64,000 nt of DNA from Bolinopsis microptera (taxonomy: Eukaryota; Ctenophora; Tentaculata; Lobata; Bolinopsidae). A model generated the notes under the pieces. The model searched no databases. It saw nothing but the letters and a program-made list of their open reading frames with translations, and had not been told where the DNA came from. The first letter of the stretch is position 1. Each line of letters starts with the position of its first letter. This document shows positions 8,121 through 63,474 of this stretch, one piece after another. The position numbers and the translations under genes are program-made. The stretch lies in contig NC_087076.1 in NCBI RefSeq assembly GCF_026151205.1, positions 6,004,902-6,068,901 of the forward strand. The letters run 5' to 3'.

Positions 8121-20269
<12,149 letters not shown>

Positions 20270-27859: not shown

Positions 27860-47097
<19,238 letters not shown>

Positions 47098-48540
47098 TCT
47101 TCTTCAGCAGCTTAAACACACATCCTATACTACCTATTGGGGTCCTTAGATTAGGTTTTAATGATGCCCCTGCTACTATATTTAAATTGTAAATTTATTT
47201 ACGATTTATAAATCTGAAAGTTAACTGACATTTGGAAAAAACTGCTTCTGTTTTTTGTAACAAAGATGATTAATTTCTTATCCAGTTATCCAGTAGAGTG
47301 ACATGAAATTTGAAATAGAAACCCTATTTATATCCTGTTCTTACTGTTAGAGCAGTTTTCAAACAAACGATTGTAACAAATAAAAGAGTCAACTCAACTC
47401 AATTTATAATTCCAACTAACGGTAAGCAACAAGATCTCAAATATTTAAACTTATAATAGTGTAGGTTTGGTTGAAGGTTCGTTTTCACTCCATGGTGTAA
47501 TTTGCTACCATTGTTTGTTTGAATCCCGAAGGTGCCGGCAGTTCTAATGACTGATTTTCAAAATATATAATTTAAAATTACCTGATAATATGATAGAAAA
47601 ACCTTGTTAAATCTAGTAGATAGATTTAAGAAGTAAATCCCTAGACATATTGAAAGACATATAATTATTGATATATTTGACCTTCTCTGACATGATCTTT
47701 CGTCAAGTGCCATGCTTTCATAAGGTGCCATGCTTTGAACCTCGGCCGGCCTAATCTGATCAGGTTTTCTACTAGTAAGATGACATTAATCTTCTGGCTA
47801 AAAGAAAATGTAGAAACGAAAAAGTATGATTCAGCTCATTGTCCCTCTGAACAATACACAGATAGTTTCAGGAACAGGATATGCAGCCCAGAATCGAACA
47901 TAACGCGTTAAGGCATAATGAGAGTCATTTTATCTTTCTTTTAAAGATATGATGATGATCATTACTTTGCTTAACCAAAACTTGAACGGAAACGAAGCTG
48001 TGTTGACATATACCCCAAAATATTACAGAATTGATGTGCAATTAATCTAATCATTATTTAAAAGTTTTGCGACTGAACGAAGACAAACCGATAATGATTT
48101 ATTCTACAGGCGGAGTAAATTCTACACACGATTGTGTGTGGGGCAAATTAAAACGCTCCAAGGCCTGTATGATTACATGCTAAATGTCTTGACCCCCTGT
48201 GGCTCAAATATTGGCATTACGTGTATTTTAGTTAGGCTGGGCATTCACTAATGCGCACTTCTATTTGCTTTTTATGCTTGTCATTGGTGTGGGTGCCTTT
48301 TATCTGTATAGTTTCATTCTGTCTCGTCATTCTGTCTCGTCATTCTGTCTCGTCATTCTGTCTCGTCATTCTGTCTTGTCATTCTGTCTCGTCATTATGT
48401 TTTGATTTGATTTGATTTGTCTCTGGCGAGAGTCTATGAGGGTCCCCTAAACACCCTGAGTTTCCTCAACGCACCAGCTTAAAAGGCTGTTATATGATAC
48501 TGTTTGGGGTTGCCACCTTAACTCTCCATATAAATGAAAA
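47098..48540. other. Upstream region of the SLC12A8-like gene
   Basis: AT-rich; the promoter of the minus-strand transporter should lie in its left part, but no core element stands out. At 48317-48397 there is a 13-bp repeat (CATTCTGTCTCGT, about six copies). Nothing else supported. Confidence 0.55.
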
Positions 48541-50290
48541 AGCATTCGTCTTTTTTCTAACTTCCCCGACGTTTTAAAGACTGGTAGAATAACTCCTGTA
48601 TTTAAGAAGGGAAACCCTGAAGAGATAGAAAACTACCGCCCAATCTCTACTCTCTCTATATTTGGTAAAATCTTTGAAAAGATCATTTACTCAAGAATAT
48701 ATTCGTTTGCTAGCTCACAGGGTATAATATCTAAAACACAATTTGGCTTCAGGCAGTCACACTCTACTTCACATGCAGTTAATCACTCAGTAAACCTTAT
48801 AACTGAATCTCTAAAACTTAAGCATCATGTCTTAGGCATATTCATAGACCTTAGCAAAGCTTTTGATACAATAGATCATGGTACATTACTTGTCAAATTA
48901 CAGGGCTATGGGATACGTGGGGTGGCAAATGATCTTATAAAAAGTTACTTAACAAATAGATCACAATATACTGAAGTTGTTGGTGAGAAATCTGACGCCT
49001 TGAAAATACAGTTTGGAGTCCCTCAGGGTTCGATTCTTGGACCTCTCTTATTTCTCCTATATATTAATGATATCGCCAACAGCTCCAGTTTGGGATCATT
49101 TGTCACCTTCGCTGATGACACCAATATATTTGTGACTGGGAAATCCAAAAAGGAGGCATATATGCGTGGTAATTCTCTTTTAGCTAGTTTATATTCCTAC
49201 ATGCGAGCAAACAAACTCCATGTCAACTTGTCTAAATGCTGTTTCATTCACTTTAAACCAGCATCGTCCTCCCAGACTGACAATAATTCTGAATATACTC
49301 TAACCATTGATAACTTTCCAATAAAACAAGTTGCATCTGCTAAGTTTCTGGGAGTCGTCATCGATGAACAGCTAACCTGGGAAGAACATATAAAATCACT
49401 TAGGCGTTCTCTCAGCCATGCAACATCAACTCTCTGCCGCCTACGCTGCTCCCTCCCAGATTTCTTACACCGCCAGTTGTATTACACTCTATTTGAATCA
49501 CACCTCTCCTATTGTATCACGGTTTGGGGTGGGGCAGCCAAAACTCGTATAAGTTCTGTATTCAAAGCACAAAAATATTGTCTCAGGGTACTGTTTGGCG
49601 ACAGGGAGGCATACCTAGATAAATTTAAGACCTGTGCTCGTGCTCGACCGTTTGGCAACCAAAATCTGAACAAAAAATTTTTCTTGAAAGAGCACACGAA
49701 ACCTTTGTTCAAGGAACACGGAATACTTGCCGTCCAAAACCTGTACACTTACCATTGTTTCCTTGAGCTCTATAAAATCATGAAATTCCGTGCTCCGATT
49801 TCCCTCCATGAAAATTTCACCTGCTCAAGTAGGAAACCCACCCTTATACTAAGCCAAGCAGACCCCCCTGACAACTTCAATAGCAGAACGACTCGTATTT
49901 GGAACGTAATTGTGCCTAAGCTTGGTATACGTGACTACTGTCTAAGTGTGGCCTGCCTGAAGTCTAGGATGAAGCAATCACTGCTCGTCAACCAGCATAA
50001 CCATGCTGATCTTGATTGGACAAACAAAGATTTCGAATGCTCTACTCTAAATTTTGACATTAAGTCTACCCTAGGGTCCACACATCCAAAATGATTATCT
50101 TGAAATTGAAAATTAGCTGGGTGTGCATTTTCCTTTGTCTTACTAACGTGTGTGAGCGCAGTGTAGTGAGAAAGTGTTTTTAACAGATTTATTATTAGAC
50201 TTAGGATTATGATTTTTAATATATTACATTGATATAAGATTTATTTTTGATAGGTACTTAATAAAGTTGATGAATTTCCCTCCCTATTAA
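48541..50290 (+). mobile_element. 5'-truncated CR1/L2-like LINE (reverse transcriptase 3' half)
   Basis: An open frame runs from 48541 to the stop at 50092-50094, about 517 codons with no disruption; the first in-frame ATG is 48922. The first residues FPDVLKTGRITPVFKK enter the reverse transcriptase mid-domain, so the element lost its 5' end, ORF1, endonuclease and RT fingers, as is normal for LINE insertions. Visible motifs: ENYRPISTLS, FGFRQSHST, FIDLSKAFDT, FGVPQGSILGPLLFLLYIND, TFADDTNIF (catalytic Asp pair) and AKFLGVVIDEQLTW. The conserved C-terminal region has FGDREAYLDKFKTCARARPFG. A roughly 190-bp 3' tail with AATAAA near 50261 follows. It is a different, related family from the intact LINE downstream: the RT is clearly similar but many positions differ. 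Confidence 0.9.
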
Positions 50291-51515
50291 AATTTTAAAC
50301 CCATTTAGTGAAAATTGATAAACGAAGATCTAGATATTGATACATATTATAACCAACATATCTAGTTTCCAAAAATCTACCGAGCTAGTGTTCTGGTGTG
50401 CACAAAAGCCCCTAAGCCCGTGCATTCCTTGCCCCCGCTAGCTGCCAGTCCTTGACAAACTTCCAATAGCAAAGATCAACTAGTCATTCACAAATTGAGC
50501 ACTATACAATTTTAATTGTTTTAAATATTTGACTTTGTAAAATGAGCTAAAACATTGATTTATTAGTTTCATTGATTTATTAGTTTCATTGATTTATTAG
50601 TTTCATTGAACTTCCGCAGTGGTTACACAGACAGATACTAGATGCCTAGAATCTATGAAAAAAGTAAATACATTGCTTATTTCATACCTTACTCATTTCA
50701 TACGAATATTTGAAAGAACCTTTCACATAAAATATAACATGTATTGGCTATGCCCCGCTTACTAGTTTAGCTCTTTCTAGTCCCCTGCTACACGGCATGT
50801 AAACAGGGATTGGCTAGTTAGAGGCGGTCCGTGTAGGCCTTACACTGTGCTTTCAGCAATACTCATAAGTATTTCCGTGGCTGTGGTTGCAATGCGCCTA
50901 GTCTACTGGAATGATTCTTCGGAATTTCGCTGGATTGTACAACTTTCGTCTTGGTAGATTCCAAACACAAGGAAATTTTCCTTCTGGTTGGTAATATACT
51001 CAATGATGGAAGTATAGTGTATTGGCTATGCCCCGCTTACTAGTTTAGCTCTTTCTAGTCCCCTGCTACACGGCATGTAAACAGGGATTGGCTAGTTAGA
51101 GGCGGTCCGTGTAGGCCTTACACTGTGCTTTCAGCAATACTCATAAGCCGTATAATCTCGCTCGGGTGTAACTGTATAACCAGAAACCAAACAATGTATA
51201 GTTATCTCAAGTAAATTGTGTCTGAGATACAACAAATTCAATAGCCTTCTGCTACAGCCCGTAGTATATATATAGTTTTAAACTAATTACAACATTACCA
51301 ATCTATTACATTTATTGAGTGTTCAGGAATGGTATGTTACAACTCCCCCGAAGGGGCGTACTAAGCTAAGGGTCATCTACACTCTATTAGGGTCATCTAC
51401 ACTTTACTAGGGTCATCAACTCTGAAGTCCTAATCCCCTCCAAAACAAAACACTTAACGGGAGCCGACCCCAAGTCGGATCTATTTGGTCAGTATTACTT
51501 ATATTCGATTTGAGA
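50291..51515. other. Flank and probable 5' UTR of the intact LINE, with a 129-bp direct repeat
   Basis: An 18-bp TTGATTTATTAGTTTCA repeat lies at 50556-50608. Identical 129-bp copies lie at 50741-50869 and 51019-51147 (period 278 bp). From about 51340 a CCCCGAAGGGG hairpin and GGGTCATCTACACT repeats lead to ORF1. The start of the LINE was not located. Confidence 0.6.
50741..51147. repeat. 129-bp direct repeat pair upstream of the LINE ORF1
   Basis: Copies at 50741-50869 and 51019-51147 appear identical base for base; the 149-bp spacer is not repeated. Both lie 370-780 bp before ORF1. Likely either promoter-type 5' monomers of the LINE or a recent local duplication. Confidence 0.85.
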
Positions 51516-53681
51516 ATGGCATCAAATACTAGGAAGACTTCAGGTACTCCTAAAACATCTAATAGCTTGTCTCGCAACCTTTTAGTCGACTCTACAGTGG
51601 ACAATGAAGATCAGGAAAACAGGAAACATAGGGACAAGAAGAAATGTCCATGTCAACGCTCTTTTAACGGTAAAGTTTACCTCATTGACTGTTCTAAGTG
51701 TCATCAAGAGTGGCATGTGGACTGCTTGTCTATGAAAGGTATAGCGAGGTCAGCTATCAACTCCATGGTAGAATGGCTGTGCCCATACTGCTTCGTGGCA
51801 CCAGTATCAACACTGAAAAAACAAAGAGTTGAATTTTGTTACAGCTGCAGGAACACAAGGTCTTTGCAACAGGCCAACTCAGATTTTGAAGCATCTACAG
51901 CTGTTAAGAATCTTGAAACTGTCAGTGCACTCGTGGCATCAGCAAGCTCAGCAGGCTCAGCTCTTGAAAAATTTGACTTCGAACAGTTCTCTAAGAACCT
52001 TGACACTCTCTCCCAGTTCGACGTTCACCTTCAACACCTGCTTCTTAAAGAGAACTCCCTTAATGGGCTAAATGATGAAATAAAGCTTCATGATAAATCA
52101 TTAGAATCAATCAATACTAATATTGCCGAACTTCAGAAGGACCTCAAACTTCTGTCATCCAGACCATCTACAGAACCCTCCTCACCCTCAGCTTCATCTG
52201 AGCAGTTTCTGAAGGACATCTCTGAACAGCTCACTGTACTCTGTGCCAATGAGCACACTGCAGCTGCAGGCATAAGTGATTTGAAACAATCCTTAGACTC
52301 ATTACAGCCATTGCATAATCCTGGCCCCTGCATTCCTCCTACCTCATTGCATCCAGGACCTCCTACTCAGCACCTTCGTTCTCCAGTCCCTACAGTCCCT
52401 GTGCAGCTACCCAATCATGAGCAGAAACCTGTGGAAATGTTCAAAGATGACTACATTGATCAGAAAACAGCAAATGACTTAGGAGAACTTTTTGTTAAGG
52501 ACAGTGGTCACTTCAAAGTTGAGAACGACCGCTCCTGCCTAACATATGGGGAAAGGTATGATTACCCAGGTTCCAAGTCATCTGAAAAGCCACAGGCAAT
52601 ACCATCGGTTCTCAAGGAACTCATTGACAAAATCAATAATGAGTTCTGCCAGGGTGATCTACCTCAGATCAACAGCTGCTTAGTAAATCGGTTTGAAGGA
52701 ACAGACAGCAAGCTACCTAGACACTCTGATGATGAGCCAACCATCCATCCAGAGTCTCAAATATTCACTGTTTCGCTTGGTTCTGCATGTCAGGTTTCTT
52801 TCTCTGACTCTCACACAGGCACTGATAAGCACAAGCAGCAATGTGACCCACGTTCCTTGTATGTTATGACACGTCGTAGCCAAGCACTGTTCAACCATCG
52901 TATTGATGCAGGTGATATAGAAGGGCTACGTTACAGCATCACACTTAGATCCGTGAATTCGTTGAACAGAAATGCCACATGCATCATCGGGGATTCAAAC
53001 ACTGGAGGCTTGAAATTTGGTACTGATCCTGCTAAGTCATTCGGCAAGTGGTTACCTGGCAAACGCATCTTCGCTCCGGTCATTGATAGTATAGATCCTT
53101 ATGTCACGTTGGGGTATAGAAACTGTGTAATATTGTGCGGGGTCAACGACCTCAAAAACGAAGAGGTCAAGAACCAACATGACATTGAAATTATTTATAA
53201 TGCATTAGCTTCAAAGATTGCACAGATACAATCTGTCAATCCGTGTATACATGTTTTTGTTTGTCCAGCAATTCCCTCTAAACGTGCTGACTTAAATAGA
53301 AAACTTATATATTTTAACAGTTTGATTCGACGTAGGCTGCTCCCGTCCAATTTTGGTGTCAGTTATGTGGATGGATTTGATGAGTTCTGTGATAGAGATG
53401 GTCTACTTGACCGCTCTCTCTCTCGCGACCTCAACAAACACCAAAAACCAGACTTCCTTCACCTCAACTGGAGGGGACTAGCAAAGTTAGGTCAATTTAT
53501 TCGTAACACTGTTCTTCTCAGGATTAACGGTGGTATCGACAAAAGGAAGAGGAGGTCCACAAAGGTAGACAGTAGATCCTTCAGGGATGTGACTGCTGGA
53601 AGAGAAACTGGTCCTGTTGTTCCTGCTGCTGCTAGTCAGGGTCACGTGGATGGCTACCAACCACATGACTCCCCTCATTAA
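51516..53681 (+). CDS. LINE ORF1: PHD finger, coiled coil, AlkB-like dioxygenase and SGNH esterase
   Basis: 721 residues from ATG 51516 (the frame is open two codons further back). Residues about 45-97: a C4HC3 PHD finger (CPC, CSKCHQEWHVDC, CPYC). About 130-225: heptad-like helix, probably a trimerising coiled coil, then a Ser/Pro-rich linker. About 345-480: an AlkB-family 2OG-Fe(II) dioxygenase. It has a YGERYDYPGS substrate-lid motif, PRHSDDE with the iron ligands His403 and Asp405, FTVSLGSACQVSF, distal His461, and RYSITLR (Arg472 and Arg478, the 2-oxoglutarate clamp). About 485-665: SGNH hydrolase with GDSN (nucleophile Ser494), LCGVND and a terminal DFLHLN (Asp-His). PHD and esterase are known in CR1-like ORF1 proteins and the whole should act in the retrotransposon RNP; the AlkB part could reverse alkyl or methyl damage on template RNA or cDNA (inference). 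All key residues are kept. Confidence 0.9.
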   Translation: MASNTRKTSGTPKTSNSLSRNLLVDSTVDNEDQENRKHRDKKKCPCQRSFNGKVYLIDCSKCHQEWHVDCLSMKGIARSAINSMVEWLCPYCFVAPVSTLKKQRVEFCYSCRNTRSLQQANSDFEASTAVKNLETVSALVASASSAGSALEKFDFEQFSKNLDTLSQFDVHLQHLLLKENSLNGLNDEIKLHDKSLESINTNIAELQKDLKLLSSRPSTEPSSPSASSEQFLKDISEQLTVLCANEHTAAAGISDLKQSLDSLQPLHNPGPCIPPTSLHPGPPTQHLRSPVPTVPVQLPNHEQKPVEMFKDDYIDQKTANDLGELFVKDSGHFKVENDRSCLTYGERYDYPGSKSSEKPQAIPSVLKELIDKINNEFCQGDLPQINSCLVNRFEGTDSKLPRHSDDEPTIHPESQIFTVSLGSACQVSFSDSHTGTDKHKQQCDPRSLYVMTRRSQALFNHRIDAGDIEGLRYSITLRSVNSLNRNATCIIGDSNTGGLKFGTDPAKSFGKWLPGKRIFAPVIDSIDPYVTLGYRNCVILCGVNDLKNEEVKNQHDIEIIYNALASKIAQIQSVNPCIHVFVCPAIPSKRADLNRKLIYFNSLIRRRLLPSNFGVSYVDGFDEFCDRDGLLDRSLSRDLNKHQKPDFLHLNWRGLAKLGQFIRNTVLLRINGGIDKRKRRSTKVDSRSFRDVTAGRETGPVVPAAASQGHVDGYQPHDSPH

Positions 53682-56600
53682 GGAGGTATGTCTTGTCTGT
53701 TCTAAGAACATAGTCATCGGCCAAACAATAGTTGAATGTTTCCACTGTGACTGCATAATGCACCATAAATGCTATCGCAAATCCAATACAAATAGCCAAT
53801 CTAATGAGTTTTACTGTACTCGTTGTATCCATTTAGACAAGGTTAAATATAACCCATTTAAACTACTCACTGACAATGACGACGACGACAACAACCTAGA
53901 CGAATACACAACCAAAATCTCGAATACTTTAAATAATTGTAACTCATACACTGCATCTGACCTTACCAATATTCTCTGCAACCAAGTAAAGAAACAATCA
54001 TCTATTCTCTTTCAAAATATTGATGGAAATAAATCAAATTTTGACAACCTTGCCATTGAAACCTGTAGGTACAAAACAAAATTCTCCGTAATAGCCCTAG
54101 CTGAAACCAACACTGGGAAAGAATTAAGCAATCTATTTCAGCTCGACGGTTATAATAGTTACTATCAGGACACAGCACCTAACAAACAAAAGGGCACTGG
54201 AGTAGCCCTTTATGTTGACGATAGATTAAATGCTACAGTAATTGAAAATATATCACAAGTCACAGAACATTTAGAAATACTTGTCTTATCATTAAGTAAC
54301 GAAGATCAACCTGTTAATGTAGGTGTTTTGTATCGTCCACCAAGTGGCTGTATTTCCCAAGCTCTAGTTGAACTTTCTAACCTTCTTGATCACATGCCGA
54401 AGTTCAGTTATCTAGCTGGAGACTTTAATATCGATCTTCATGATAAAGATAACAAAAATGTACAAAAATATGAAGAAATATTGTTCAGTAAAGGATTTTG
54501 TCCGTTAATATCTATTGCTACTCACGAAAAACCAGGCTGTAAAGCATCTTGCATAGACAACATAATTACCAACGACATTGAGAATGTTATTACTTCAGGC
54601 ACCCTAAAAGAACGAATAACTCACCACTCGCCTATTTTTAACACATTTAACTGGAATGTTGAAGTCAACTCTGGAAAAACTCCTATTAAACAGTATTACG
54701 ATTTCTGTCAATCAAATGTTAACGGCTTCCTAGTGGATCTTGAAGATGAGCTTAAGACTAAAATAATCCATAACTTTACTGAATTCCATGACACTTACAA
54801 AAACTGCATCGAAAAATCGTTTAAACTAGAAACCCCAAAAACCTCTAAGAGAACTGTTAAGGTTAACCCTTGGATAACTCCCGGTCTCATTTGCTCAATT
54901 AATAATCAGCATAAACTGTACGAAAATTGGGTTGAGATAAGAAATAGAAAATGTAAACTCGGTGAAACTGATAACAAGGGCGGGATTTGCCAGTGCCCCG
55001 AATGCTCACTAAAACGTAGTCGCTACCTTATCTACAAAGAATACAGAAAAGTCCTAAAGAAAACACGTCAAACTGTGAAAACAGATTACTTCTCTGGTAA
55101 ATTTGCAGAAAATAGCGGGAATAGTAAAAAGACCTGGGAACTAATAAATAGTATAAGAGGAAAACGGCGGCGTGAAATAAAGCCGCTGTTCACCATAGAC
55201 AACGTTAAGATAACAAACAGGAGGATCATAGCAAACGAATTCAATAAGTATTTCGTATCATTGGCCTCTGACCTCAATACTGCTTACAATGAACTTGGTC
55301 AAATGAACATAAACAATCTACCTAGTTTCTATGACTATTTACCGCTCTCAAACACCTCCAGCATTTACATGCATGACTGCACAACAGACGAGGTTAGCAA
55401 AATCATATCTGAACTTAAGAACGGTAAGGCAAGTGATATACCAATTCATGTTGTAAAACAGTCTTCAAAAATAGTGACTCCTCTACTTACTGTACTGTAC
55501 AATGAATGTATGAAAGATGGCATATTCCCAGATGACCTTAAGATTGGAAGGATTAGTCCAATTTACAAGAAAGATAACCAGGAACTCCTTGAAAATTATA
55601 GACCTGTGTCGACACTTGCAGTATTTGGTAAAATATTTGAAAAAATTATATTCAACAGATTATATAGCTTCTTTCATTCACAGAATTCCTTGTATGAAAA
55701 CCAGTACGGATTCCGTAAAAATCATTCGACTAGTTATGCTTTAAATTACTCAGTTAACCACATAGAATCACGTCTCAAGAAAAAACAACACGTACTTGGA
55801 ATATTTATTGATCTTAGCAAAGCTTTTGATACAATCTCACATGAAAAGTTACTGCATAAGTTAGAAAATTATGGGATCCGTGGAAATGCAAACAACCTTA
55901 TAGCAAGTTACCTGTCGAATAGATACCAGTATGTCTCAGTATTAGGTGAAGACTCTGAGAAACTGCCCGTTGTCTACGGAGTGCCCCAAGGGTCCTGTTT
56001 AGGTCCCTTGCTGTTTATCATCTATATAAATGACATCCGAAACTCATCAATTTTAGGAACGTTTATACTATTTGCCGATGACACTAACATATTTATTGAA
56101 GAAACATGTGTCAGAAGACTGTACGAAAAGGGAAATGAAGTTTTAGCATCTGTTTATAAGTATATGAAACTAAACTTATTACATATTAACATTAAGAAAT
56201 GCTGTTTTATCCACTTTAGACCGTCACGTGCCAAAGAGGAAGTAGAAAATGACGAGAACATATTAACTTTGAACAATGTTGTCATTAAAAAAGTCCGAGA
56301 AGCTAAATTTCTAGGTGTCATTATCGATGATCAACTTAATTGGAAAACTCACACACGGTCACTTAACTCAAAACTTAAATGTGAAGTAGGTAAGTTATGC
56401 AGAATACGACACATTGTCCCTAAACAGTATTATAAGGATTTATATCATACTTTATTCGAATCACATTTGGGATTTGGAATATCTGTATGGGGTGGTATTA
56501 GCAACAACCGACTCGAACCTCTCTTTAAAACACAGAAAAAGTGTATAAGAATTCTATTTGGGGATAAAGAAGCTTACTTAGAAAAATTTAGAACTTGTGC

Positions 56601-57018
56601 CCGGACACGACCATTTGGTGAGCAAAAACTAGGTGTGGATTTTTACAAAAAAGAACACTCTAAGCCCTTGTTTAAGAATCAGAAATTGTTAACTGTTCAC
56701 AACCTGTATAAGTACACTTGTCTCTTAGAACTATTCAAAATTAATAAGTTAGAGGAACCATTATCACTGTACTCATCATTCAACAGGTCACCACGACGAG
56801 AGAATTATTTCATCACATCACAACCATCCTCACAGTTCATCTACCAATCATCCTACATGTGGAACAGCTGTCGACAAACATCAAGTAAGATAAGTTTTAA
56901 TACTCCGACAAACGGGTTTAAGAATACATTGAAAATTGCTTTACAAGAATTGCAATTCAAGCATGATACACTTGATTGGTGTGAGCTTAATTTTGCCACA
57001 AATGAGCTCAAGTTTTGA
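53650..57018 (+). CDS. LINE ORF2: PHD-like finger, APE endonuclease and reverse transcriptase
   Basis: 1122 residues from ATG 53650; this overlaps ORF1 by 32 nt in the +1 frame, with another ATG at 53665. N-terminal finger: CLVC, CFHCDCIMHHKC, CTRC. An apurinic-type endonuclease follows at about 120-330: LFQNIDGN, ALAETN (catalytic Glu), GVLYRPPSG, AGDFNIDL, CIDNII and THHSPIF, the last standing in for the SDH motif. A CxCPEC finger-like element lies near 443. The RT at about 590-830 has ENYRPVST, FIDLSKAFDT, GVPQGSCLGPLLFIIYIND and LFADDTNIF (FADD from residue 808). A thumb, AKFLGVIIDDQLNW, and a C-terminal GDKEAYLEKFRTCARTRPFG complete it. No RNase H domain. Full length and uninterrupted, so recently active or nearly so. 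Clade CR1/L2-like by ORF1 type and APE-RT order. Overlapping start suggests reinitiation or ribosomal coupling for ORF2 synthesis. Confidence 0.93.
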   Translation: MATNHMTPLIKEVCLVCSKNIVIGQTIVECFHCDCIMHHKCYRKSNTNSQSNEFYCTRCIHLDKVKYNPFKLLTDNDDDDNNLDEYTTKISNTLNNCNSYTASDLTNILCNQVKKQSSILFQNIDGNKSNFDNLAIETCRYKTKFSVIALAETNTGKELSNLFQLDGYNSYYQDTAPNKQKGTGVALYVDDRLNATVIENISQVTEHLEILVLSLSNEDQPVNVGVLYRPPSGCISQALVELSNLLDHMPKFSYLAGDFNIDLHDKDNKNVQKYEEILFSKGFCPLISIATHEKPGCKASCIDNIITNDIENVITSGTLKERITHHSPIFNTFNWNVEVNSGKTPIKQYYDFCQSNVNGFLVDLEDELKTKIIHNFTEFHDTYKNCIEKSFKLETPKTSKRTVKVNPWITPGLICSINNQHKLYENWVEIRNRKCKLGETDNKGGICQCPECSLKRSRYLIYKEYRKVLKKTRQTVKTDYFSGKFAENSGNSKKTWELINSIRGKRRREIKPLFTIDNVKITNRRIIANEFNKYFVSLASDLNTAYNELGQMNINNLPSFYDYLPLSNTSSIYMHDCTTDEVSKIISELKNGKASDIPIHVVKQSSKIVTPLLTVLYNECMKDGIFPDDLKIGRISPIYKKDNQELLENYRPVSTLAVFGKIFEKIIFNRLYSFFHSQNSLYENQYGFRKNHSTSYALNYSVNHIESRLKKKQHVLGIFIDLSKAFDTISHEKLLHKLENYGIRGNANNLIASYLSNRYQYVSVLGEDSEKLPVVYGVPQGSCLGPLLFIIYINDIRNSSILGTFILFADDTNIFIEETCVRRLYEKGNEVLASVYKYMKLNLLHINIKKCCFIHFRPSRAKEEVENDENILTLNNVVIKKVREAKFLGVIIDDQLNWKTHTRSLNSKLKCEVGKLCRIRHIVPKQYYKDLYHTLFESHLGFGISVWGGISNNRLEPLFKTQKKCIRILFGDKEAYLEKFRTCARTRPFGEQKLGVDFYKKEHSKPLFKNQKLLTVHNLYKYTCLLELFKINKLEEPLSLYSSFNRSPRRENYFITSQPSSQFIYQSSYMWNSCRQTSSKISFNTPTNGFKNTLKIALQELQFKHDTLDWCELNFATNELKF

Positions 57019-58647
57019 TTAATGTGATTTACTAAAATAACCACTTATATTTCCTCATACATGCAACCACTGCACTCCAACTAAACACATTATTTACCAC
57101 AGTCCACACACCATACTCCACAGATGATATATATATATATATACACACAAACACACTAGTACCGAACAATTGCACTGCAAAACATGCTCACGATACACTC
57201 AAAATTGGAAATATTCAACGGCTCGTATATGAAACTTAGCGACTTACACTCAGTGTACACCCAGTATTAACCAGTATTACACACTAGTAAATTCTACGTA
57301 ACGCGCGAAAACAATAATTCTGTAGGGTTTCCATTGTCACATCTCACGTCGACGGGATTAAACGCGCGCGCGCGTAACAACTTATCTTACTGCTAACTCA
57401 GCGACTAAACACACAACGACTCTGACAATTGACAGACGATTAAACAATTGTGAGTTATGACGGACTTAACTGTATGGGTCAACTACTGAAACTGTATTGT
57501 TTACTATCTTAATCATTATACTGGACATGAGATGACGAAGTATCTTAAGCAGCACTTTATACCCCCCACTTAGAACTTGATTAGTCACGAACAATAGAAT
57601 CATCAAAAACCAATACAATAAAACATCTTGATCAATAAATGCCTAGCAGCACCAGACAGCAGCCGTGTACCTTTTTCGACTCCGTGGAGTTCCTGATGGA
57701 CTTTTGTTTACTTTTGTTAATAATCGGATCAACCTTTCTTTCTCGAAACATGTATCCTATTGTATTTCATTATTGTATTAAAATGTAAAGATATACTAGA
57801 TATTACAACGAAATAGCGGTATACCAAATTGGCCCTTGATATTAACTATAACCGTGTTGATGGTTTTAAATTTTGTATGTTGTAAGTATTATATTTTAGT
57901 TTGTGAAGCGTTTACTCCTCCCCCTCAGCAAGACAGTTAGATTGTAGATTAATGATAATAATTGTCAAATGACGTTATATATTATATAACAGTTATAAAT
58001 GTTCAATAGTTGTAGAGCGATTTCAAGAGTAGTGGTCCACAGGGGCCCGAAAAAGCCGTACAGGCACTTGGGTCCTTATCCTTGTCACTAATCTCAATTG
58101 GATTCGGTTTACACAAAACATGAACATTTAGACGTACACATTGACACGATATTTATTAGAAAGCAAAAAGTATAAAATAATACGTGCGTGCGCGGCTTGA
58201 GCCGCGCCGCATAAGAACGGATGCGTGCAGGGGCTGGAGTACGCTTGTATGTAGATTAATGAAATGTTGCATTGTAAATATTGAGAATTGACGATATATT
58301 ATGATCTAATAGTAAATTTTACAAAGCTGGCTTTGGATTTAGGTAAGATTATAATTCATTCAAAAAAACCACGGATAGTTTAAATTTATTTCTATTTGTC
58401 GTATAATCATAAACAATTTAATCCTGTTTTCAAGAATGCGCGGCTTTGGCGGCCAGTTATTGACTTATACATTAAATTGGATTTTAAATAGAAATGTGAA
58501 TATATTAAATTTAAAACTTTCAAAACGGAGGCTTATAAATATTATTATATTATGATTGTAAAATAAAGGATAAAATTTTAAATTTGTTTCACTAAAAAAT
58601 TTGTTTCACTATGGAGCATTGAGGAGAGGAATTTTTTGTTTTTGCTG

Positions 58648-60939: not shown

Positions 60940-63474
60940 CTACTCCATTATAGGGGCAGGGATGAGGTTGTATGAAACTTCTGATAGCTGAATCTCACGT
61001 TTGGTGTCCACCTTCTTTCCTCGGTACCCTCGTAGAGCAATAAGAGTTGTTCTCAACATTGCAAATCTTATCCTAGTTCTCACGTGTCTTACTACATCGC
61101 AGTACCTTTCCTTCCTTTTTCTTGCAATGAGGTCTGCTACTCTGTTGACGAACTGCTTACACTCTTTAGACATTCCTCCAGATGTGAGGAATACAGCCGG
61201 GGTGAAGGTAGCCTTCTCCACATTCAACACTCTCCAAGTACTCGTCCTTCTTCTCTTTCTCGTTCTCTTCGTATACTTCTTGAAGAGTTTTTGTCCTGTT
61301 TGATAAGCAATTGGGGTGTGAAACCCTTATGTCAAGAAAGGTCTTATCAAATGGAGTCCAAACTCATCTAGCAGATACATCAAGCCGAGCTTGGTCACCT
61401 GTTATAGTCTTGGGGTTGAGGCAGTCACCCTCATTCACCTTCTGTAGCTGGGGTTCAACTTTTACATCATGACATACCTCACGAAGTAGATTTGCCATTG
61501 TGTCTCTGATGTTGTTAGGGGTCATTATCACGTAGCCCCCTAGCTTACAGGTGAGAAGGTGGTCAAGATCACTTGTTTTCCCACATCCACAGGTGATGGG
61601 AGTGTTTGGTATCCACCAACTGTAGCGTAAGCAGACACTGTCTCGAAACTCCTCTTTGTTCAGAGTGTAGCCATACTGCTGAAGTGGCAATGTGTTAAGC
61701 CAACTGGACGCTACCTTTTCTCTTGCTGTTAGTAGTGCTCTCTTAGAGGAGGTGCCACATCTTTCAGCTATAGCGTTAAACTTGGCTTGGAGCTCGGAAT
61801 TCTTCAAATTTTTTATCATTTCTTTCCCTGACTTGGTGAGGTTACTGGATGCAGTGTAAACTTCCTGTTGGTCCACTATTGCCTTTGTAAGCTTGGTGGT
61901 GAGTAGCTTGGAAGCTGTGTACTCAGACTGGCATTCCTCGTGGGGTTTACCAATGCCCAATCCTCCCAATCTTATTGGTAGACTTAACACGTCCCTCTCT
62001 AAGTCTGAAATCTCCCTGCCCAGCATCTTTGGCAGAAGCTTTTGTCTTATTTCATGTTCTAGCGGCTCCATGGCTTCAGAGATATGAGGAACAGTCCTTT
62101 GAACAAACTTCCATCGGTGTTGTATGCCAGAGATTTAGGCTGAATAGGCTGCTTGAGGCTCAGATTCTGCAATATCAGCTAGCATCTTGATGTCTTCGCA
62201 CCACCCTAGGACCTCATCGGCAATGTACTGATCTTTGACACCTGTATTGCCAAGTACTGCACCAAGATGCCTTGTGCCTGATGTTATTTGCATATTGAAC
62301 TCTCCAAACAATGCCTTGGCCTGGTCGATCATCTGAGGGTCCTTCACTACTAGAATGCTTTTAGATGGGTTAGGAAAATAACCATACTTAGGTCCAACTT
62401 GGAGCAACTCCTTCCACCACTTATACACTGCCTCCAATCATCAGCAAACCACACCTGTTTGATGATGTTTCTCAGGCGGTCGATAAGTGGCTTGGTGCTA
62501 AGAGCATATCCACCAGTGGCAATATTGTCTCCTTGAGTGAAACCTTCGCAGCTCTTGATGATCACTCCCTTGCTGTTTGCCACATAAAGGTCTGTTGGTT
62601 ATCTGTAGGTGTTCTCAAAATATTTAGCAAGTGGTGGGCAAACATACTGCATGTTGTTGGTAGCAGCAGTCCTATTGAGAGCGTTGAATGCGTTGGAAGC
62701 ATCCACTAACAAAATGGCTTCCGTGTCCTCATCATCGTGCACCTCTGCCATAGCATGTATTGCTGCCTCGATCCCCCCTTCATGGCCTGCACATGTTTGA
62801 AGTGGTCCAGCATTCTTCTGAACATCTTTTTTTAATACCATCATCACACACTTCCCAAATAATCCGTCTCAGGATCTCACCAATACCAATTGGTCTTAGG
62901 CCTGGACATTTATCTAAGGGGACAAGCCTACCAGCTGTGAGCACTGCTATTGATTTGAAATCTACATCTTCAGTACATACACGCCTGGCTAATCTGGCAA
63001 TTGCTTCAGCGACAAGCTCTTGGGATTTACTAAATGCACTACAACACAGGATGTGCTGCCAGCACTCTGAATCTACTAGTGTTGGTCCACCTGATCCTGA
63101 TGTCAGCTTAGCAGCCTTTTTCACTAACATTGAATCGATGGCTTCAAAGATAACTTCTTCGACTGCCACTTTGTTACCTGTGATCAAAATTTCATCTGTC
63201 GCTTTTCTATTGCTAAGTTTTGGGATTGAACGGGCGAACTTGTCTCTCCACACTCGTTTTAAATGTTCTTCATCTTTCCCTCATTTTCCGATGACTTATT
63301 CTTCGCAGTACAGTGCTCCTTTCCATAGTACTGTTGAGTGTTGGTATTAGAAGTAGTATTTGGGCGGGGTCCAAGTTGTCGGAACGTTTTTTGGCAAGAG
63401 AGTCTGCATAGAATAATGTTCACATCAATATCATATATTTTATAGTTCATGTTTGCTCTTATCAGAGCCCTCAC
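60940..63474 (-). mobile_element. Degraded reverse-transcriptase element, unusual non-LTR-like lineage
   Basis: Several minus-strand open segments follow one another in the order of a single polyprotein. N-terminal part: LRPIGIGEILRRI. RT palm: LLVDASNAFNALNR, GFTQGDNIATGGYALS and WFADD. Thumb: SGTRHLGAVLGN. Downstream: a CxCG...HLLTCKLGG zinc-binding motif, a RLDVSAR/FLDIRV nuclease-like segment, and a final TFTPAVFLTSGGMSKEC block. I associate this gene type with reverse transcriptases abundant in cnidarian genomes, with a restriction-like nuclease at the C-terminus; I cannot place it in a named clade. It is broken in several places (roughly four to six) and looks moderately old. No terminal repeats bounding it were found; the inverted repeat at 63482-63997 lies outside. 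Confidence 0.75.

Follow-up and report, generated by a model that had tools for sequence, protein, structure and literature searches.

Why a retrotransposon should carry a domain of the AlkB demethylase kind, and whether that domain belongs to the element at all, is the question raised by a locus of the ctenophore Bolinopsis microptera. The stretch analysed, called the window here, comprises 64,000 nucleotides (positions 6,004,902 to 6,068,901 of contig NC_087076.1, or C5:6004902-6068901 in a host genome of 264.65 Mb and 232 contigs), and within it a long interspersed element (LINE) of about 7.35 kb lies on the forward strand. From the letters of its first open reading frame (ORF1), a sequence-only reading had proposed that a PHD finger, an AlkB-type 2-oxoglutarate (2OG)-Fe(II) dioxygenase and an SGNH esterase are joined in one protein, and this architecture is borne out by profile matches, predicted fold, the number of copies and conserved residues. 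The element is a young, multicopy LINE of B. microptera, with an endonuclease (EN) of the APE type and with AlkB fixed in its ORF1. LINEs are described in the abstract of an ORF1 survey as the commonest transposable elements of most animals, and ORF1 proteins as their less understood part (PMC4120745).

Domains and predicted fold of ORF1

ORF1 runs from 51516 to 53681 on the forward strand and translates into 721 residues with no internal stop, exactly between the ends first given for it; from the translation, Pfam and an AlphaFold2 (AF2) model together, the order is PHD, coiled coil, AlkB, SGNH. The AlkB domain takes up residues 299-482 (52410..52961), and Pfam places 2OG-FeII_Oxy_2 (PF13532) on residues 337-478 with an E-value of 9.2e-15 and 55.8 bits, against a curated cut-off of 31.2. 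The motifs that had been picked out by eye stand where they were expected, with YGERYDYPGS at 344-353, PRHSDDE at 401-407, FTVSLGS at 417-423, H461, and RYSITLR at 472-478. Of these, the HxDxE stretch (52722..52736) supplies the Fe ligands H403 and D405 as well as E407, the counterpart of Glu175 in ALKBH2; H461 (52896..52898) is the distal Fe ligand, and R472xSxTxR478 (52929..52949) holds the 2OG-binding and the second arginine. In the AF2 model, the block-wise predicted local distance difference test (pLDDT) is mostly above 90 over AlkB and SGNH, and lies at 92-98 within residues 301-480 except for values of 84 and 65 in 341-360, the lid. The model shows a double-stranded beta-helix with a nucleotide-recognition lid, and the structural comparison that the sequence-only reading had suggested ranks ALKBH2 and ALKBH3 first by both Foldseek and VIA-align, with small margins between ALKBH3, ALKBH6 and ALKBH5; viral AlkB models are also among the fold matches. 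Against sequences of the PDB, the single ORF1 sequence alone reaches only 0.034 at best.

The flanking domains were also read correctly. The C4HC3 finger (residues 44-92, 51645..51791) is formed by C44, C46, C59, C62, H67, C70, C89 and C92, and the SGNH/GDSL esterase domain (residues 486-672, 52971..53531) contains GDSN (S494), GVND (N544) and the pair D646/H649. Both profile matches fall below their own Pfam cut-offs (PF00628 at residues 44-92, E 0.001; Lipase_GDSL_2 at residues 535-654, E 4.6e-6), and the two assignments therefore rest also on conserved residues, the eight Cys/His columns of the PHD finger being at least 90% conserved (n=51), and that of SGNH on its fold as well. A second cysteine pair, C108/C111 (51837..51848), absent from the earlier account, is equally conserved (at least 90%, n=51) and possibly binds zinc. 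It is followed by a probable coiled coil (residues 109-262, 51840..52301), modelled at moderate pLDDT as long helices over 109-145, 155-175, 179-214, 227-244 and 246-262. No RRM or CCHC domain is found in the window ORF1 by Pfam at E<=1.

The element and its copies

The element extends from 51264 to 58611, its 5' end being approximate, as it is taken from the longest copies in the same genome (which begin at 51264-51276), and its 3' end lying at 58610-58611. Three imperfect 20-nt tandem units (51369..51428, repeat family D3) occupy the 5' untranslated region (UTR), and in place of poly(A) the 3' tail has two units with 15 identical nucleotides at a 17-nt spacing (58580..58611, repeat family D6), with similar tails in other copies. 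ORF2 (53650..57018) contains a reverse transcriptase (RT) domain (55567..56325, RVT_1 2.2e-37) and an APE-type endonuclease (54082..54576, Exo_endo_phos 3.1e-4, below cut-off), as is proper to a LINE. Its N-terminus has a weak PHD/RING-like zinc finger (53680..53829; Prok-RING_1 0.0022, C1_1 0.019 and PHD_2 0.053, all below cut-off). The frame is open from 53593 and its first ATG, at 53650, lies 32 nt inside ORF1, so that the two frames overlap at 53650-53681, an arrangement in which a coupled stop and start is possible. At L011, a locus of a related family 84% identical, the ORF1 stop comes earlier, after DGYQP. The PHD/esterase ORF1 and the tandem tail without poly(A) make the element a candidate member of the CR1/L2 lineage, within the Jockey superfamily.

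The window ORF1 (P0001) matches 70 places in the genome, 56 of which span residues 299-482. In 23 of the 70, the window copy included, at least 600 of the 721 residues are covered without a stop; 16 more have one TGA only, which in L011, the one locus where this was checked, is the terminal stop of ORF1; a further three are long matches with other stops, and the remaining 28 are partial, some being pieces of one copy. Seven copies besides that of the window have 96-98% protein identity and no stop, and in six of the seven the match begins at residue 1 or 4; one locus (L004) is 99.5% identical in DNA to the window element over 3857 nt. The 3' end falls at 58610/58611 in four of five copies fetched and at 58596 in the fifth, and the 5' ends vary; a common 3' end, a tandem tail and variable 5' ends are LINE behaviour and speak for recent activity. 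All four further families fetched (L038-L041) likewise pair a PHD-AlkB-SGNH ORF1 with ORF2 sequence, in a frame of 1122 aa in L039 and 1121 aa in L041; in L040 this frame is still open where the fetched sequence stops, and in L038 it is split over two frames. A similar RT frame lies on the opposite strand beside the L039 element.

Conservation and selection

A search with full ORF1, in which the query included AlkB and 7985 candidates were scored, listed 116 homologues. Had the domain been missing from other copies, a chance insertion would have been suspected; AlkB is present in every one of the 116 and, counting the query, in 117 of 117, with SGNH in 115 and PHD in 83, many of the PHD-less homologues being shorter proteins. 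Ten of the 116 have a species name and all ten are from ctenophores (Bolinopsis 1, Mnemiopsis 9); three Mnemiopsis gene models (P0063, P0066 and P0082) fuse AlkB to EN and/or RT. A search from divergent members added 42 proteins, a species name being attached to none of its 44 hits, and an AlkB-domain search contributed the best 120 of 201 matches. From the 279 proteins gathered, the 175 with both AlkB and SGNH were used; the other 104, which lack SGNH and include free AlkBs and fragments, were left out. AlkB precedes SGNH in 175 of 175. A very divergent protein of 626 aa, P0279, has AlkB and SGNH, a long linker and no PHD that was found, and its long branch leaves its tree placement unsure. 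The scan of a viral collection returned no relatives among 21 pattern matches, and that of bacterial and archaeal contigs only two bacterial SGNH-only loci among 35.

H403 and D405 are each kept in 173 of 173 rows, H461 in 173 of 175, R472 in 175 of 175 and R478 in 173 of 175; of the 173 rows covering this Fe/2OG set, 169 have it complete. E407 is kept in 170 of 174, Y348 in 157 of 159 and Y350 in 157 of 158, and the esterase residues have counts of their own (S494 175/175, N544 167/167, H649 149/149, D646 146/149). PF13532 matches 50 of the 51 members of the family alignment (A1) at E<=0.01. Mean identity between members is 0.468 for AlkB, 0.485 for PHD and 0.487 for SGNH, and 0.273 for the coiled coil. 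Between the window family and L011, nonsynonymous divergence (dN) in AlkB is 0.156 and synonymous divergence (dS) 1.24; the nonsynonymous-to-synonymous ratio (pN/pS) of the domain is 0.23 (0.17-0.32) and, for L038/L040, 0.18 (0.10-0.32) in the two of 15 family pairs without dS saturation. As judged from these ratios, the AlkB domain is under purifying selection.

AlkB in other elements of the genome

The host genome contains AlkB well beyond this family. At least 151 places match PF13532, with 150 of 587 candidates scored; the window locus is not among the matches listed, and copies of the P0001 type therefore come on top. Thirty of these loci were fetched and fall into three clusters of 13, 7 and 6, with one locus per cluster extended, plus L055, which encodes a PHD-AlkB-SGNH protein of 586 aa, and three host genes, one ALKBH2-like (L042, 4e-60) and two ALKBH3-like (L043 and L044, 2.5e-39 and 1.6e-27). 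In the first type (13 loci: L045, L047-L054, L057, L059, L064 and L066), eight of the 13 have an ORF of 644-646 aa in which AlkB is followed by SGNH (detected in 11 of 13), and no PHD was found; the extended locus continues into an open frame of 499 aa with matches below cut-off to Exo_endo_phos_2 (0.0029) and, in part, RVT_1 (0.018), an EN-RT-like frame that makes the type LINE-like. In the second type (7 loci), AlkB lies in frames of 719-3388 aa, and in five of the loci SGNH was detected before AlkB within that frame. The one of these seven that was extended (L063/L072, C10:16874382 onward) has a 3388-aa open frame ordered SGNH, proline-rich region, AlkB, DUF6570 and Helitron_like_N, continuing without a stop from AlkB into DUF6570 (2.9e-14) and Helitron_like_N (1.6e-22), the sequence fetched ending before the helicase part; the type is thus a putative Helitron-like element with SGNH and AlkB. 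The third type (6 loci: L058, L061, L062 and L067-L069) has frames of 591-884 aa that hold a coiled coil and, nearer the N-terminal end, AlkB; no SGNH is found in it by profile, an SGNH-like C-terminus being visible by eye only, in L058, and an endonuclease-like frame was read by eye downstream in L058/L074, so that this type too counts as LINE-like. The residues H, D, E, H, R and R are kept in 33 of 33 aligned rows (30 element or element-like, 3 host).

Trees of these domains were built by a quick method, with fragments and near-copies removed by hand or by an identity filter, and their supports are from the Shimodaira-Hasegawa-like approximate likelihood ratio test (SH-aLRT), with no bootstrap. 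When 40 LINE rows were placed in a tree with 66 free AlkBs, 39 of the 40 grouped (SH-aLRT 88), the exception being the long-branched P0279. In a wider tree, the AlkBs of LINEs (P0279 included) and of the first and second types form one group (SH-aLRT 84) away from host ALKBH2/3, and a branch with SH-aLRT 94 puts the third type, of which one form has 777 aa, on the side of the host and free AlkBs. The host ALKBH2-like and ALKBH3-like genes are parted from the LINE AlkBs by both of these branches. The LINE AlkBs thus fail, in this quick tree, to group as orthologues with the ALKBH2/3 of the same host, and recent capture of the host's own gene is not supported, though the supports are modest. A single origin of all element AlkBs is unlikely, as the third type falls apart from the others; at least two captures of AlkB are likely, again with modest support.

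Exchange of segments between LINE families

Within LINEs, AlkB appears to have moved together with its neighbours. In 150-bp bins (setting aside the first, before the L011 match begins), the window family is 93-99% identical to L011 outside residues ~210-610 and 72-85% identical inside them; correspondingly, dS is 0.08 in PHD and 0.03 at the C-terminus, and in SGNH dN is 0.067 and dS 0.63. A block of low identity between near-identical flanks suggests that AlkB was exchanged between families together with the distal part of the coiled coil and most of SGNH. L038 and L040 differ in pattern (dS 0.16 in PHD and 0.30 in AlkB, SGNH saturated), and P0003 combines a P0021-like N-terminus with a P0001-like remainder. 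Apparently, then, either AlkB-SGNH or N-terminal segments have been swapped between LINE families. The mosaic of ORF1 at residues ~210-610 is seen against both L011 and L017.

A model for the function of the ORF1 AlkB

What the analysis shows is the domain with its predicted fold and conserved active site, its association with EN and RT, and purifying selection; from this a model of what the domain does can be put forward. It proposes that the ORF1 AlkB works as an oxidative Fe(II)/2OG demethylase in the manner of ALKBH2/3, acting preferentially on 1-methyladenine (m1A) and 3-methylcytosine (m3C) in the element's own single-stranded RNA or DNA, a proposal that we hold to be somewhat more probable than not. 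The ORF1 protein would form multimers on the element RNA by means of its coiled coil, and AlkB could clear methyl lesions or marks on the Watson-Crick face of the template and, likewise, of single-stranded DNA exposed at the target site, while the PHD finger may anchor the complex on chromatin and the esterase may, as has been suggested for ZfL2-1, attach it to lipid membranes. Since m1A and m3C block reverse transcriptases, repair of the template would be of plain benefit to a LINE. In the profile comparison, the domain matches ALKBH2 at 1e-18 and ALKBH5 at 2e-4, and FTO is absent from its matches at E<=1. The profile is thus closest not to the ALKBH5/FTO type that demethylates N6-methyladenine (m6A) but to enzymes that act on m1A and m3C, so that m6A, which the sequence-only reading had named among the substrates, would appear less likely, while still compatible. 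In ALKBH2, Glu175 and Tyr122 both form hydrogen bonds with the amino group of the m1A or m3C base, on which Phe124 stacks, and the E175A mutant has no activity (PMC12295762); window residues were paired to such positions through our own profile alignment with ALKBH2.

Several observations weigh against this model. FTO too has such an acidic residue close to its active site, and in ALKBH5 one is supplied from another position (PMC3985658), so that residues alone leave m6A possible. The counterpart of ALKBH2 Arg110, a pairing likewise of our own making, varies over 158 rows between R (101) and H (57); a Fe/2OG residue is changed in four of 173 rows (P0124, P0156, P0271 and P0273); and the other 13 of the 15 family pairs have AlkB pN/pS of 0.41-0.58, which is uninformative because dS is saturated. 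Further, a Helitron-like element carries an AlkB that groups with those of LINEs. Such an element needs no RNA template, and repair of template RNA would therefore not be the whole story unless its mRNA or single-stranded DNA were the substrate, which shifts weight to a substrate common to both kinds of element, whether mRNA, single-stranded DNA or host marks.

As the chief rival to self-repair, the domain may be an anti-silencing eraser that removes marks written by the host (m6A/m1A on element mRNA, N6-methyladenine on element DNA) and so counters surveillance, and the great number of AlkBs here, in several kinds of element including the Helitron-like one, is what a counter-defence shared by LINEs and DNA transposons would produce. 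The PHD finger of ORF1 could read chromatin, and there are precedents in the AlkB of an orchid Ty3/Gypsy element, which demethylates in vitro and for which its authors propose an epitranscriptomic role (PMC9289625), and in the TET/JBP proteins reported for fungal DNA transposons (PMC12730594). However, the likeness of the profile to ALKBH2/3 rather than to ALKBH5 or FTO speaks against it, and we regard host-mark erasure as rather unlikely. An idle or repurposed domain, serving as a module for binding single-stranded nucleic acid or acting on protein, is improbable: RNA binding must have some source in an ORF1 that lacks the RRM and CCHC domains used by other ORF1 types (PMC4120745), but pure binding would not need the Fe/2OG residues that are kept in nearly all family rows and in every row of the genome alignment. 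Finally, nothing was found in favour of an artefact, in which a fragment of a host ALKBH gene was inserted by chance or a frame misread, though host ALKBH-like genes exist. The same architecture recurs in many genome copies, in distinct families and in database proteins, and the tree separates the LINE AlkBs from host ALKBH2 and ALKBH3; with the conserved residues, the copies and further families rule out chance insertion, pseudogene and misread frame, and the residual likelihood of an artefact is vanishingly small.

A wider reading is possible, though we hold it only tentatively and think it on the unlikely side. AlkB, usually with SGNH, may be a recurrent counter-host module that was captured two or more times and that one ctenophore has in a Helitron as well as in three LINE ORF1 architectures. 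It would have been swapped between LINE families and also have passed from class I to class II elements or the reverse, and it would demethylate element nucleic acid against a host system, based on methylation or dealing with damage, that has yet to be described in ctenophores. If a demethylase is indeed fixed in ORF1, and another is carried by a Helitron-like element, methylated bases would matter to element replication, and removing this natural demethylase should expose which mark or lesion limits retrotransposition.

Other features of the window

Upstream of the element, a 130-bp exact direct repeat (50740-50869 and 51018-51147) was considered as a 5' UTR repeat and rejected, because element copies match only from 51264 or later, which places it outside. 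One locus (L012), the only such one among those fetched, has a single 130-bp unit ~360 nt upstream of its own match start, much as in the window, and some copies may have a longer 5' end that takes in this unit. The Rfam scan of the window gave no match at the gathering threshold and one sub-threshold match of 13.7 bits near the 5' end of the element, so no known ribozyme was found there. A related LINE fragment lies just upstream (48538-50609), its ORF2 part 52% identical to the window element, and a 17-nt tandem repeat (50553-50609) may be its 3' tail. Open frames at 60940-62134 (reverse strand) may be pieces of another mobile element, and long in-frame simple or tandem repeats, including PEPEPE and short-period runs, are open in several frames at 11445-12834, 13986-15304, 34932-35589 and 43427-44191.

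Comparison with known systems

Close in organisation are the CR1/L2 ORF1s of Type III and Type IV, among them the ZfL2-1 esterase, which share with the window element the PHD finger, the coiled coil, an SGNH domain with S/N/D/H, and EN plus RT in ORF2. The window ORF1, whose SGNH domain retains its catalytic residues, has the esterase feature of Type IV, but differs in having AlkB between coiled coil and esterase. The ORF1 survey names PHD, RRM, CCHC and esterase, with AlkB and dioxygenase occurring zero times in its main text, and according to its abstract esterase ORF1s are found only in two vertebrate groups (PMC4120745); the esterase paper lists element esterases of chordates, cnidarians and sponges and likewise contains AlkB zero times (PMC3905857). 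The present ones, in contrast, are in a ctenophore. The apparent novelty of the architecture, raised by the sequence-only reading, holds in the literature searched: no AlkB-bearing LINE or Helitron appears among the listed titles and starts of abstracts of open-access papers, a set without Repbase Reports and most subscription papers.

Beyond LINEs, the AlkBs of plant RNA viruses such as the Flexiviridae are alike in placing the domain in an RNA replicon, with RNA protection proposed for them (PMC544882), and unlike in host and in lying within a polyprotein. Cellular ALKBH3 and ALKBH2 share only ~18-24% identity with the window AlkB and occupy a separate branch of the tree, and element rows read RxSx(T/S)xR where the three host ALKBH genes read RxNxTxR. 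Fungal DNA transposons with TET/JBP (PMC12730594) are also mobile elements with a 2OG nucleic-acid dioxygenase, although of the TET/JBP and not the AlkB kind. The orchid Ty3/Gypsy element is likewise a retrotransposon encoding a 2OG-dependent dioxygenase/AlkB domain (pfam13532), and is a plant long terminal repeat (LTR) element with a separate extra ORF and a reported m6A demethylase (PMC9289625); compared by description only, the window element instead has an ORF1 fusion with PHD and SGNH, is ALKBH2/3-like by profile, and lives in an animal. AlkB in an LTR retrotransposon is already published, and the present element is an animal, non-LTR case, which joins the plant LTR and fungal DNA-transposon examples of 2OG dioxygenases borne by mobile elements.

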